Below, one piece after another: positions 3,175-62,280 of a stretch of DNA of 64,000 nucleotides. The notes under the pieces were generated by a model, which saw nothing but the letters and a program-made list of their open reading frames with translations, was not told where the DNA came from and did not search any database. The stretch comes from Candidatus Nitrosotalea okcheonensis. Its GTDB lineage: Archaea > Thermoproteota > Nitrososphaeria > Nitrososphaerales > Nitrosopumilaceae. The stretch covers positions 1,389,396 to 1,453,395 of the forward strand of contig NZ_LT841358.1 in assembly GCF_900177045.1 (NCBI RefSeq). Reading direction: 5' to 3'. Each line of letters starts with the position of its first letter. The stretch's first letter is position 1. The position numbers were made by a program, and so were the translations under genes.

Positions 3175-3558
3175 ATGGGCATTGGTTATTACATGGTAAA
3201 AGAAGTCATGAAAGAAATAGGCAACAAGTCACGTGAGTTCTATGAGTTTATTCTTCCCCCAGTAGACATGATATTGCAAAATGACAGCCTGGTGGTAGCA
3301 ATAGACATGCCAGGATTTGACAAAAAAGAGATTAAACTAAGACTCAATGGCAACATTCTCTCAATTGTAGCAACCAGAGAAGATGAGGTAGATGGTACAG
3401 TAATTTGGAGACAGAGGCCACGCTCAATTGATAAAAAGATAAAATTGCCAATCGAGGTAAAAGACGACGATAATCCAGCAGCATCTGCAAAATATCGTGA
3501 CGGCGTATTAACTTTAACAATACCTACAAAGACTGGTAAAAATATTGCAATAGAATAG
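3175..3558 (+). CDS. Small heat shock protein, Hsp20/alpha-crystallin family
   Basis: Holdase chaperone. The alpha-crystallin domain covers about residues 28-122: VDMILQNDSLVVAIDMPGFDKKEI opens it, and the strand KYRDGVLTLTIP near the end is the family hallmark. The C-terminal tail ends NIAIE, which resembles the I-x-I anchor used in oligomer assembly. Starts at 3175 or 3193 (second ATG) are both possible. Transcribed alone. Confidence 0.9.
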   Translation: MGIGYYMVKEVMKEIGNKSREFYEFILPPVDMILQNDSLVVAIDMPGFDKKEIKLRLNGNILSIVATREDEVDGTVIWRQRPRSIDKKIKLPIEVKDDDNPAASAKYRDGVLTLTIPTKTGKNIAIE

Positions 3559-3568
3559 TACTAGCTGG

Positions 3569-5119
3569 CTAGTGTTCCTTTAATGCAATAGCAAGAGCCA
3601 TTATGACAGCAGAGCTTATCATTCCAATTTCTCCCACCAGATTGTTTGTTGAATACAAAATAGTAGATCCAACAAAGACTGCAGCTGCAAGTATAGTACC
3701 TGAAAGCAGAACAGTTCGTGATTTTGGTTTACTTGCATGCATGTTTTTGTTTTGCTCAATGAATTGTCTGATCTCTGGCACCACTGCAATTGCAGCATCT
3801 ATTGATTTTACAAATTTTCCAAAAGAGATCTTGAGTTCTTCTACATATGCATCTCGTATAATATTTTCTTCTTCCATGATATTTTGTAGTACGTTGATGA
3901 ACCTGAAATTTACCTTGTGGGTAAGATACACTCCCTCAAGTATTGATGTCATTCTCATGTAAAGTGCAAGATGTTTTGGTAGCTTGAATGGGAATCTGCT
4001 CATTGTCTTGTTTGCAAGCTCCATGAGTGCCTTGACTTCCATCCTGTCCACTTTGGTTCCATGAAATGCCTGAATTGATAGCGCAAGACCCTTTTCTATT
4101 ATATTTCTGTCATATCCTGGCATAAGCATTCCAAGATCATCCATTGCAGATACTGTTCTTATTGGATCTCGTTCTATGAGCGAAAGATAAAGCCTGATTA
4201 GTTTCAGTCTTGTTTTGGTATCCAGCCTACCGACCATCCCAAAATCATACAGTATTAGGGAACCATCGTTTGTAACAGAAATGTTTCCAGGATGCGGATC
4301 TGCATGGAATAGATCGTGTCGTAACAACATGGTAAAAAAGATTCTATGGGCACGCACTACAAGTTGTTCCCTGTCAATTCCTGCCTCGTCAAGTGCCTTG
4401 ACGTTTGTTATTTTTATTCCAGGCAGATATTCCATAGTGAGTATATTTTTGCTAGATCGGTCGTCTATAACAGAGGGAATTATCAGTTTTGGGTAGCTCT
4501 GCATATTTTTCTTGATTGTCTTTAGGTTCTGGGACTCGATTCTATAGTCCATTTCTTCATTGATAGTTTCAATGAACTGTGAAAGCATTGCCTCTGCGGA
4601 ATAACGAAGGTTTGGGTCAACAAACTTCATTGTAAACGGAATTATTTTTTTTAGTACATGTATATCTTCTTCAACAACTTTTTCAATTCCTGGTCTCTTG
4701 ACTTTTATGATTACGTCTTGTCCCCTAAGTCTTGCCTTGTAGACCTGTCCAAGTGATGCTCCAGATATTACGTTGGTGTCAACGAAATCAAAATTTTTGT
4801 CCATTGGCCCAAGATCTTTTTCTATGATTGGCTTTACCTTGTCAAATGATTCTGCTGGAACCTCATCTTGGAGCTTGGCTAGTTCCTCAAGATATGGTTG
4901 TGGCAAAATATCTGCCCTTGATGAGAGCCACTGACCCAACTTGATGTATACTGGACCAAGAGAAAGAAATGTCTTGAGTGCTTTGCGTGCATTTTTTTGA
5001 TATCTCTTGAGATCAACATTTTTTCCTTGTTTTTTTACCCACTCTCTTCTGTCCTTTCGTAATGCAAGTACAAGTGGTATGAGCTTGATGAAGGTTTGAA
5101 TTGTTCTTCTTCGTGTAAT
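3569..5119 (-). CDS. ABC1/UbiB-family protein kinase-like protein with probable ATT start
   Basis: Atypical kinase of the ABC1/ADCK/UbiB family. Numbered from the proposed start: an N-terminal region with ARKALKTFLSLGPVYIKLGQ typical of the family, the A-rich loop SGASLGQVYKAR (near 120-130), the VKVKRPG lysine strand, the catalytic HADPHPGN (272-279), YDFG (291-294) and two hydrophobic C-terminal segments (about 470-515). The ATG/GTG/TTG frame begins only at TTG 4939, inside the conserved KLGQ motif. The family N-terminus continues 60 codons upstream with no standard start. GGGAGGAG lies 9 nt before ATT at 5117-5119, so ATT is the likely start. Substrate unknown. Confidence 0.85.
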   Translation of the reverse strand: MTRRRTIQTFIKLIPLVLALRKDRREWVKKQGKNVDLKRYQKNARKALKTFLSLGPVYIKLGQWLSSRADILPQPYLEELAKLQDEVPAESFDKVKPIIEKDLGPMDKNFDFVDTNVISGASLGQVYKARLRGQDVIIKVKRPGIEKVVEEDIHVLKKIIPFTMKFVDPNLRYSAEAMLSQFIETINEEMDYRIESQNLKTIKKNMQSYPKLIIPSVIDDRSSKNILTMEYLPGIKITNVKALDEAGIDREQLVVRAHRIFFTMLLRHDLFHADPHPGNISVTNDGSLILYDFGMVGRLDTKTRLKLIRLYLSLIERDPIRTVSAMDDLGMLMPGYDRNIIEKGLALSIQAFHGTKVDRMEVKALMELANKTMSRFPFKLPKHLALYMRMTSILEGVYLTHKVNFRFINVLQNIMEEENIIRDAYVEELKISFGKFVKSIDAAIAVVPEIRQFIEQNKNMHASKPKSRTVLLSGTILAAAVFVGSTILYSTNNLVGEIGMISSAVIMALAIALKEH

Positions 5120-53967: not shown

Positions 53968-55191
53968 TCACATCTCCAGAATGTTCAAGTTAAACCTTAT
54001 GCGGGTTCTGTCAAGTTTACAGCTCGCGTCTTTAAACTCGACTTGCTTCCATCTACTTGCAGGATTAATGGCCGTAAGTTTTCCATCTTCTCCCTTCATC
54101 GCTTCTTCTGGAAGCCCTCTAGGATGGCAAAACCTACTCCACCCCTTGTAAGATATGTTCATGGATGCAACAACATCGCGGTCCATTGATCTCTTACAAT
54201 TATTGCACAACAATTTACGAAGTTGTAACCTGTCCTCTTGGATTCTATCTCTGCACATTGGACAGAGTTGGCTGGTGCGTTTTGGATCTACAAATTTTAC
54301 TGGAATCCCTTCCCATGATGCCTTATACTGGATCTGCCGTTGCAACTCATAGAACGACCATGAGTTTAATCTTCTTCGATACTTGTTTCCCTGACCATTT
54401 CCCTTTCTGTATAATTTTCTTATTCCCTTTAGATCCTCCAAAACTATCATTGACTTTGATTCTACTGCCTTTTTGACAATGTCTTTTGAGATTATGTGTA
54501 GATGTTGCTGGATTCTCCTTGTTCTCCTGTTTCCAAGCCTTTTTTAGAAATGCCTCTTTACTCTTACATCAAATCTTTTAAAAGACGATATCACGTGAGA
54601 TGTGTTTTCCTTTATTGATAATAACTTGCTAGTCTTGTACATTACAGTTTGATTTGGAGTTGATATTGTTATGTTTCTCAAGTTCCTGTCTATCCCAATC
54701 ACGTTTTCTGGAATGATTTGCTCTACTTGTTTTCTTACTGAGATTGATACTGAACCAGGTGTTATCACAAATGACCTTGGTTCTGCATTTTCCAGTTGTG
54801 ACATGGTGTACTCATTTAGTTTGACCAAGAACTTGTCACCATTTGAGGTTGGAAATGAAAGCAACATTCCATTTATTTTGAATCCATAGCATGATACAAG
54901 ATACAATTTTTTGACATAGGGTGATTTTGGATTTCTGCCTTTCTTGATGTCTCTTTTTCTCTGAGCTAGTCTGCCCATAGCCTGTGACATTGCAATAAGT
55001 TTGTATTTTGATTGTATTTGGTATTTGTCTAAATCTCTGTAATGTAAAGATGAAAACTTACCTAATGTTGAGATATTATCCTCAAGACCGATTCTTATAC
55101 ATTCATTCACCATTTGTTGAAATGTTTTCATCATATTACCAAGTTCTGTGGTTGGTGTGAACTGTTGTCTTACTGCTTTGTATGCTAACAA
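53968..55191 (-). pseudogene. tnpB: IS200/IS605-family TnpB interrupted by one in-frame stop
   Basis: One frame of 408 codons with a single TAA at codon 216 (54544-54546); both sides are in register. All RuvC residues are present: D168 in GIDRNLRN, E252 in VLEDLKG, D339 in MDRDVVASMN. The zinc knuckle C310/C313/C329/C332 is intact. No TnpA and no clear terminal hairpins were found. TTG start at 55191. TnpB is an RNA-guided nuclease. The stop splits it into a 215-aa N-terminal and a 160-aa C-terminal frame with its own ATG (54450). It interrupts a likely rpoL-tfs-pcn cluster. Confidence 0.85.
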
Positions 55192-60159: not shown

Positions 60160-62280
60160 TCAGAGTACAAACTGGAATCTGCTTTGTTTATAGTTTTTAG
60201 AAAGTTTACCATCAATTGCTATCTTAGTACCACAAAAATTACAATTGTTATTATCGTCAAGATACCATCCCTGGATGTCAAAGCCATATCTTTTGACAAC
60301 AATTTTCTTGCATTGTGGGCAGTGTGTATTTTCAAGAGGGTGACCTGAGACATTTCCTAAATAAGCATAATTGAGTCCAATCTGCTTTGCAATCGTATGA
60401 TGTTTTTCAAGAGTAGATATTGGCGTTGGTTCGAAATCCATCATTTTGTAATCTGGATGAAATCTAAGAAAATGTATTGGCATGTCAGGCCCAAATTCAT
60501 CATAGATGAATTGGCATAATTTTTTGGCAGATTCTAGATTATCACCAACTTGTGGTACTACCAAGTCAGTTATCTCCACGTGAATCTTTGTTTTGCGGTG
60601 TATTTCTTTGAGGGTATCAAATATAGGTTGAGGATCAGGGATTCCGATATATTTCCGTGAAAATTGTGGTTCGGCATTTCCCTTAAAATCTACTGTAATA
60701 CAATCAAGAAATTCATTCATCATGTTGACTGTTTCTGGAGTGTCATAACCATTTGATACAAAAATATTAAACAATCCATTTTTTCTTGCAATTACTCCGC
60801 AGTCACGTGCAAATTCGATAAATATGGACGGCTGATTGTATGTATATGCAATCCCCTCAGAGCCTGACTTGATTGCCAAGTCAACTACTTCTTGAGGTGT
60901 CATATCAGTTCCTTCTATTTTTCGTCGCTGGCTGATGTCATAATTTTGGCAATATTGACAATTATGTAACAATATACCATCTCCTACATAATTATGATTT
61001 GGGATACATTCAAAACTGAATACTTGAGTGGTTTTGCCTGTGTATTTTACTTGTTTAACATCCATCCAAGTTTTTTTGTTTTTTCTTACTAAAGGTGAAA
61101 CATATTCTAGAATAAGAGCCTCAACTTCATCAGGATGACTGTATATTTGTCTGCCAGAAATCCGTATGGTTTTCCATCCATTTGCAGCCAAAGTTTTGTC
61201 TCTAATTTTATCAGTTTGTTGAGTTTTTTCAGAATTATAGTGCCACCATCCATCAATTTCAATATCGATTTTGGCTTCTATTATAGCCGCATCTGCAATG
61301 TAGAAACTTTTCGAGCCCTCAACATATTCTTCTATTTTAACTCGATATTCTTTTTCATATTTTATACTCATTTGATCAAGAAGATCATAAAGTAATTTTT
61401 GAGACTCTGATGGATGTGTATGAAGCCATTTTCGCAATCTTTCAGCATTTTTGTGCCAACCATGAGAAGAATCTTTCATGAATTTAGCTTTGCTTGTTTC
61501 ATGTGCTTTTTTTGCTATAATAGGATCGTGCATCGGATTATTAGCCTTCATTCTAATACTATACTTCATTCGTATTTCTTTTGGTATTTCATATTCCTTC
61601 AAATAACAAACTCCTCTATGCCTGTTCCATTCATCAATACCTACAATTACTTGATCACAATTCTTGCATGAGAATTTAGATTTTTGAATCAAGTTCAATC
61701 TTTTTTCCCTCCAAACTTTGGTATTTTGATACCAGACTTTGATGATTTTATCGCCTGCTTCTAGTGTTTCTGCTGTTTTCCATCCATTAGTTGTAAATAC
61801 AGGATGTTCTCGTGTAAGGTATAACTTTCCATGTCCTCTACTTCCATACCTTACTTCCAAAAGTTCTGCAAATCTCGAACCAGCATGTGTAACAACATTA
61901 GGAACTATTTCAAAATTACCTTCAACATTATACGACCACACCTTATCACCACGGGTTATTTTTTCAATAGATTTCTTGGAACCGTTGGCCATCAAGATTT
62001 TCGTTCCTTTTGGTTGACAAAGCCAATTACAGCCAGTCGTAGCAATAGAAAATATGTTGGTGCCTGGCCTATAGTGAGTTACGGGTTTTTTCTCAATTGG
62101 GTCTACATGTCCAGTGATTACTTTGCCATATGCAAGAAGATCAAGCTTGCCGCTGTTGTTTGCTCTTATTCCACATAGACCGATCTGATCTTTTCCAATT
62201 TCACAATATCTAGCGCATGCTGTGCATTTGACCTTGTCATTAGGTAACTTTTGATAGAGAATTGCTTCCTTTGCCGTCAC
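60160..62280 (-). CDS. AmmeMemoRadiSam-type radical SAM enzyme with intein
   Basis: 706 aa precursor, 353 aa after removal of a 353-aa intein. The extein is a radical SAM protein linked to AMMECR1/Memo in the AmmeMemoRadiSam system: N-terminal Cys cluster CTACARYC...LCGIR, spliced motif TTGCNWL+CQYCQNYDIS (CxxxCxxC), EGIAYTYNQPSIFIEFA, and a C-terminal zinc site CPQCK...CNFCGTK. The intein sits between the first and second Fe-S cysteines, so the enzyme is inactive until splicing. GTG start. Confidence 0.9.
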   Translation of the reverse strand: MTAKEAILYQKLPNDKVKCTACARYCEIGKDQIGLCGIRANNSGKLDLLAYGKVITGHVDPIEKKPVTHYRPGTNIFSIATTGCNWLCQPKGTKILMANGSKKSIEKITRGDKVWSYNVEGNFEIVPNVVTHAGSRFAELLEVRYGSRGHGKLYLTREHPVFTTNGWKTAETLEAGDKIIKVWYQNTKVWREKRLNLIQKSKFSCKNCDQVIVGIDEWNRHRGVCYLKEYEIPKEIRMKYSIRMKANNPMHDPIIAKKAHETSKAKFMKDSSHGWHKNAERLRKWLHTHPSESQKLLYDLLDQMSIKYEKEYRVKIEEYVEGSKSFYIADAAIIEAKIDIEIDGWWHYNSEKTQQTDKIRDKTLAANGWKTIRISGRQIYSHPDEVEALILEYVSPLVRKNKKTWMDVKQVKYTGKTTQVFSFECIPNHNYVGDGILLHNCQYCQNYDISQRRKIEGTDMTPQEVVDLAIKSGSEGIAYTYNQPSIFIEFARDCGVIARKNGLFNIFVSNGYDTPETVNMMNEFLDCITVDFKGNAEPQFSRKYIGIPDPQPIFDTLKEIHRKTKIHVEITDLVVPQVGDNLESAKKLCQFIYDEFGPDMPIHFLRFHPDYKMMDFEPTPISTLEKHHTIAKQIGLNYAYLGNVSGHPLENTHCPQCKKIVVKRYGFDIQGWYLDDNNNCNFCGTKIAIDGKLSKNYKQSRFQFVL
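60961..62019 (-). other. Intein with Vsr/DUF559-like endonuclease domain
   Basis: Precursor residues 88-440. It begins at C88 in CQPKGTKILMANGSKK and ends NHNYVGDGILLHN before C441. Splicing blocks: block A at the start, block B LTREHPVFTTNGW (159-167), block F VFSFECIPNHNYVGDG and block G LLHN|C. The middle has a zinc finger (CKNCDQ...HRGVC, 205-225) and a nuclease-like region: SESQKLLYDLLDQ, ADAAIIEAKIDIEIDGWWHY, AANGWKTIRISGRQI. This resembles Vsr/DUF559 PD-(D/E)xK enzymes. No LAGLIDADG motif seen. Confidence 0.88.

Follow-up and report, generated by a model that had tools for sequence, protein, structure and literature searches.

A probable mobile intein with an in-frame EDxHD homing endonuclease in the AmmeMemoRadiSam gene of a Nitrosotalea-genus archaeon

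Introduction

The window analysed in this study is a 64,000-nucleotide stretch from the chromosome of a soil archaeon that oxidises ammonia. Near its end lies a radical-SAM gene of the AmmeMemoRadiSam type (60160..62280, minus strand), called as a single open reading frame of 706 aa with a GTG start. Its iron-sulphur cluster motif is interrupted by a long insertion. We wanted to establish what this insertion is, whether the nuclease within it is of the usual LAGLIDADG kind, and whether its position in the cluster motif reflects the habits of a selfish element or a function in the control of the enzyme.

Inteins and EDxHD nucleases are each already known. The family presented by Dassa et al. 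in 2009 reportedly came from split-intein 'fractured' genes. The type example of EDxHD homing endonucleases is I-Bth0305I (PMC3943268). The family is also named EDxHD/Vsr (PMC12350094), and its members have been described from introns and free-standing genes (PMC3943268, PMC12350094).

The intein interrupts the cluster motif of a single-copy gene

The host gene was assigned to AmmeMemoSam_rS (TIGR04337, NCBIfam) with 296 bits against a cut-off of 220, and the Radical_SAM domain of the 706-aa frame scored above the curated Pfam cut-off. The gene is present once in the genome, and genes of the Memo and AMMECR1 families are found elsewhere in it. The genome is a closed single contig of 1.97 Mb, and the chromosomal archaeal location given in the initial annotation is supported.

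The limits of the exteins were taken from the sequence and from intein-free orthologues, and for the C-extein from NCBIfam as well. The N-extein (62020..62280, minus strand) ends with CNWL, and the codon of its first cluster cysteine is at 62031-62029. The C-extein (60160..60960, minus strand) begins with Cys+1 of the intein (CQYC, codon 60960-60958), which doubles as the second cysteine of the radical-SAM motif CxxxCxxC; the third is encoded at 60951-60949. With the intein removed, the extein reads TTGCNWL^CQYCQNYDISQ, that is, the CxxxCxxC motif is restored. Intein-free orthologues from the same genus show CNWLCKYC exactly at this junction, and 18 empty alleles with the exact junction were read directly. 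The initial annotation had placed an intein within the CxxxCxxC motif of an AmmeMemoRadiSam enzyme and had proposed comparison with intein-free orthologues; this comparison confirmed its coordinates to the base.

The intein occupies 60961..62019 (minus strand) and is 353 aa long, from C1 (TGT, 62019-62017) to a terminal HN (N353, AAT, 60963-60961). These boundaries come from the empty alleles and from an alignment of 18 same-site inteins. Pfam detected Intein_splicing (PF14890, E 1.7e-12) and DUF559 (E 2.8e-8), both above curated cut-offs; the NCBIfam intein models gave a weak N-terminal match and a C-terminal match above cut-off. The residue set of class-1 inteins is complete (C1, T69-R-E-H72, H352-N353 and Cys+1). 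The N-terminal Hint half (residues 1-98, 61726..62019, minus strand) holds C1 in block A and T69-R-E-H72 in block B, with T69 and H72 invariant, and it is matched by mini-inteins in Foldseek. The C-terminal half (60961..61077, minus strand, TIGR01443) holds blocks F and G (NHNYVGDGILLHN), in which H342, Y344, V345, H352 and N353 are invariant.

The inserted nuclease is predicted to be of the EDxHD type

Between the two Hint halves we found three elements, all on the minus strand. The first is a C2HC zinc-finger-like element at 61603..61674, with C118, C121, H134 and C138 invariant in 18 homologues, so that the zinc finger of the initial annotation stands. The second is the motif NNPM (residues 160-163, 61531..61542), by resemblance a NUMOD3-like DNA-binding linker, with N161 and M163 invariant in the 18; this region is common to the phage nucleases. 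The third is the EDxHD/DUF559 nuclease domain (residues 200-312, 61084..61422), and DUF559 (PF04480) was matched by all 18 aligned nuclease domains. The putative catalytic residues are D243 (IADAA, 61291..61293) and E254-x-D256 (IEIDG, 61252..61260), and H260 of the nuclease motif is encoded at 61240..61242. D243, E254, D256, H260 and D270 are invariant in 18/18 inteins of the same-site alignment. Since these elements are conserved in 18 homologues at an identical site, we exclude a chance origin. No Pfam match to LAGLIDADG was obtained at E up to 1; the Vsr/DUF559-like nuclease that had been read from the sequence in place of LAGLIDADG was thus correctly recognised.

Further, we modelled the domain with AlphaFold2. 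Modelled alone, the nuclease reached pLDDT 89 and pTM 0.82. Its best match in the PDB by Foldseek was I-Bth0305I (3r3p, E 7.5e-5, TM 0.80 by target); a Neisseria endonuclease-like protein (3hrl) ranked third and E. coli Vsr (1vsr) ninth. A profile search agreed, placing 3r3p first (E 0.004). The model of the whole intein, for which the 18 sequences served as input, had a mean pLDDT of 81 and a pTM of 0.44; due to the latter value the packing of the domains is uncertain. In Foldseek this model matched Hint mini-inteins and again 3r3p (TM 0.80 by target). The nuclease is therefore predicted to belong to the EDxHD (Vsr-type, DUF559) class, with a Vsr/PD-(D/E)xK-like fold. Structure prediction and the state of the catalytic residues across homologues had been named as possible grounds for refutation, and neither applies: the fold was predicted with confidence, the putative catalytic residues are intact in 18 homologues, and the sole natural allele in which they are broken appears to be the expected stage of decay, as described below.

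Occupied, empty and decayed alleles

We surveyed 37 Nitrosotalea genomes, of which approximately 31 could be scored. An intact intein was present in 5/37, namely G000, which is the genome of the window, G006, G016, G020 and G022. One more genome, G009, carries a decayed intein (allele L011), and in G019 the intein is interrupted by a contig end. The site is empty in approximately 24 genomes, including the 18 read directly. G029, where the junction falls into an assembly gap, and the fragment G036 were left unscored, and four genomes gave no match. Beyond the genus, G045, G049, G052 and G057 also carry an insertion at this site, and same-site inteins with 42-56% identity occur in Nitrososphaeria and in MAGs labelled as Bathyarchaeota. 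All 18 archaeal loci of the full family found in the genome scan (L032-L049) sit in the orthologous radical-SAM gene; L032 belongs to the congener Candidatus Nitrosotalea sp. TS, and in L045 the N-extein is missing, as the contig starts within the intein. A search of a plasmid collection turned up Hint-domain toxin-type proteins alone.

The allele of G009 has lost approximately 50 aa, including NNPM, and carries D243G, D256E and G257E, while its splicing residues are intact. Judged by these residues, it is the expected stage in which the nuclease decays and the splicing residues are kept. Among the Bathyarchaeota-labelled alleles, L040/L062 has an in-frame TAA within the zinc finger of the intein and L038 a frameshift in the C-extein, reflecting either real decay or assembly error.

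The position of the intein admits another reading, proposed in the initial annotation, in which it serves as a post-translational switch and redox- or metal-sensitive splicing gates [4Fe-4S] assembly. The geometry speaks for it: C1 takes the position of the second cluster cysteine in the precursor, and judged from this arrangement splicing is likely to be required before the cluster forms. As the enzyme is single-copy in its host, its activity depends on splicing. There is also a weak match (28 of 700 bits, from C84 to C441) to NF038136, the NCBIfam model of intein-containing Rv2578c-family radical-SAM proteins, over the same pair of cysteines. We nevertheless regard a regulatory gate as improbable, because approximately 24 of roughly 31 scorable congeners do without the intein and their enzyme is apparently intact. 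Patchy presence, horizontal history and decay fit a selfish element. A combined form, in which the mobile intein is also a maturation checkpoint, with Fe-S loading or thiol oxidation blocking the splicing that cluster assembly needs, seems to us a long shot; if true, it would couple maturation of a radical-SAM enzyme to redox or iron state. We conclude that the intein is a well-documented selfish element whose kind is familiar but whose combination is unusual, and not evidence for a regulatory switch.

The intein has apparently moved between hosts

We compared synonymous divergence (pS) of exteins and inteins. In nearly all pairs from different clades it was 0.71-0.82 for the extein and 0.25-0.45 for the intein (Hint and nuclease parts), a difference of which part could stem from differing synonymous-site constraint, though in the close pair G000/G006 intein and extein pS were alike. 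For the closer pair G016/G020 the values were 0.47 and 0.29-0.31, respectively. Bootstrap intervals of extein minus intein pS excluded zero in all pairs except G000/G006. As intein pS is far below extein pS between clades, we infer that the intein moved after its hosts had diverged. The dN/dS of the nuclease was 0.13-0.24, with upper limits of 0.41 or less; such low values indicate purifying selection, by which the nuclease has been kept working.

These data bear on the possibility that the nuclease no longer homes and is kept for another role, such as defence or support of the Hint domain, the intein being inherited mostly vertically with many losses. The nuclease is indeed conserved across deep archaeal distances, and the Nitrosotalea inteins form a single clade in the intein tree. 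Vertical inheritance is, however, at odds with the low synonymous divergence of the intein between clades. It also does not agree with the near-identical pair of occupied G006 and empty G003, the exteins of which differ at 22/1044 bases, or with the trees: the intein tree pairs G057 with G052 (support 95/84), whereas the extein tree puts G057 beside Nitrosotalea and G052 elsewhere. We consider this explanation very unlikely. The TAA of L040/L062 and the frameshift of L038 could be quoted in favour of a pseudogene or of an error in assembly or annotation. We rejected this reading as having practically no chance, given the single closed contig, the frame intact in many independent assemblies and the purifying selection on the nuclease.

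Between the allele of the window and its nearest relative we observed a tract dense in SNPs (13.6%, compared with 5.2%) that spans positions -106 to +107 relative to the insertion, and 6/200 codon shuffles were equally extreme. A tract centred on the insertion is what co-conversion during homing would leave. The signal is modest, and since the relatives compared yielded no donor for this segment, we treat co-conversion as suggestive. Taken by its sequence distribution, the intein behaves as a mobile element, which its nuclease, a DNA-cutting domain of an uncommon type, has apparently enabled to jump between species.

A proposed homing cycle in the radical-SAM gene

Our preferred reading, which we hold to be very probable, is that a mobile full-length intein, predicted to be splicing-competent and carrying an in-frame EDxHD homing endonuclease, parasitises the single-copy AmmeMemoRadiSam gene of this Nitrosotalea-genus archaeon. 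Insertion site, full splicing residues, intact nuclease residues, transfer and decay are all documented at the level of sequence, and the cycle that joins them may be pictured as follows. After translation of the precursor, the Hint domain would excise itself through C1, N353 and Cys+1, rejoining CNWL and CQYC, as the intact state of both motifs and extein suggests. The freed intein would bind the intein-less allele through the zinc finger, the NNPM region and the nuclease, and the nuclease would cut close to the CxxxCxxC codons of this empty allele; both steps are predicted from the fold and the conserved residues. Double-strand-break repair templated by the intein-bearing allele would then copy the intein together with some flanking DNA, a step to which patchy presence, horizontal transfer and the divergent tract point indirectly. 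Later the nuclease may decay while splicing residues are retained, as in the one allele from G009.

The choice of the Fe-S motif as target follows the reasoning generally applied to inteins of conserved motifs: the residues of CxxxCxxC hardly vary from host to host, and an enzyme from which the intein was lost imprecisely would no longer work.

The nuclease shares its predicted catalytic fold with I-Bth0305I and other EDxHD/Vsr-like homing endonucleases, and like the phage members of the family it has DNA-binding modules appended to it. Unlike I-Bth0305I, which is phage-derived and intron-encoded, it is fused in frame within an intein, and the host of this intein is an archaeal enzyme encoded on the chromosome. 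The arrangement of an endonuclease between Hint halves is that of the bifunctional LAGLIDADG inteins PI-SceI and PI-PfuI (Foldseek matches 1dq3 and 7qss), from which the intein of the window differs in its nuclease superfamily, EDxHD and not LAGLIDADG. The match to NF038136, as it spans C84-C441, implies the same CxxxC^xxC site as far as a weak model match can tell; the host of the window intein belongs to a different radical-SAM family, and in the control genomes no NF038136 match was above cut-off. Judged by the titles and abstracts of the papers retrieved, we found no report of radical-SAM inteins of this kind.

An intein and DUF559 are likewise combined in frame in a UvrD/REP helicase from the wider group (L071), where PF14890 and PF04480 are both over cut-off in one reading frame; the intein of the window has another host gene and another insertion site, and sequence similarity is low. 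Hence, of the notability claimed in the initial annotation, the chromosomal archaeal location holds and the rarity has to be toned down, considering EDxHD nucleases in introns and free-standing genes, the UvrD intein with DUF559, and NF038136. In-frame EDxHD inteins nevertheless appear to have been little studied so far. The helicase frame lies at 202-2880 of a contig that may have entered the MAG as bacterial contamination.

Within a single genus of non-model archaea, the locus provides a natural homing series that includes empty, occupied and decayed alleles. The host gene serves as a yardstick for transfer, and there is a candidate tract of co-conversion. Because the intein sits in the [4Fe-4S] motif of a radical-SAM enzyme, cluster spectroscopy offers a direct assay of precursor activity and splicing.

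Out-of-frame nucleases in helicase inteins and other observations

With the window nuclease as the starting point we traced inteins of DExx-box helicases (DE^C...HN^CHH) in Vibrio phages, Ktedonobacter racemifer and IMG/VR contigs. These inteins enclose a whole homologous zinc-finger/NNPM/DUF559 (EDxHD) nuclease ORF, 165-224 aa as measured, in a frame different from that of the intein and always at the same offset. Intein end motifs were found in the overlapping frame at 13/15 loci, two of which are identical in the measures of the scan; of the remaining two nucleases, one stands free and the other is overlapped by a frame in which no motifs were recognised. In 55/55 pairs (11 loci) the nuclease frame showed stronger conservation than the intein linker that it overlaps, and the phage helicase-intein nuclease matched that of the window in a profile comparison (97% probability). 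Examples are L081 (1630-4227, nested ORF 2318-2947) and L050 (2512-4824, nested ORF approximately 3260-3889), with further loci at L086-L093, L095, L096 and L098. The nearest precedent that we could find is 'ShiLan', an insertion with an out-of-frame HNH and no splicing domain (PMC11855218). These out-of-frame nucleases are possibly stranger than the intein of the window and merit a separate study.

In two archaeal SF2 helicase frames (L076 and L078, minus strand) the inteins are overlapped by out-of-frame ORFs of 224 and 200 aa, respectively, which resemble a putative LAGLIDADG-type nuclease by their GDGYL motifs. Nucleases of more than one type may thus have come to be hidden in this way.

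Within the window, two adjacent minus-strand ORFs of 160 and 215 aa (53968-55191) resemble a transposon protein of the TnpB/IS200-IS605 type that has been split or has decayed. The genome of the window contains a second intein-like insertion (L083, G000:C1 at approximately 280146), in an SNF2-type helicase (CLKGDTLIST...HNYVANGIITHN^T); its linker is short, and no nuclease was recognised in frame. A Vsr-like protein of 135 aa is also encoded in this genome, next to a DNA methyltransferase and a restriction-like gene (L085, G000:C1 at approximately 1912170), and thus a cellular cousin of the intein nuclease fold coexists with the intein in G000.
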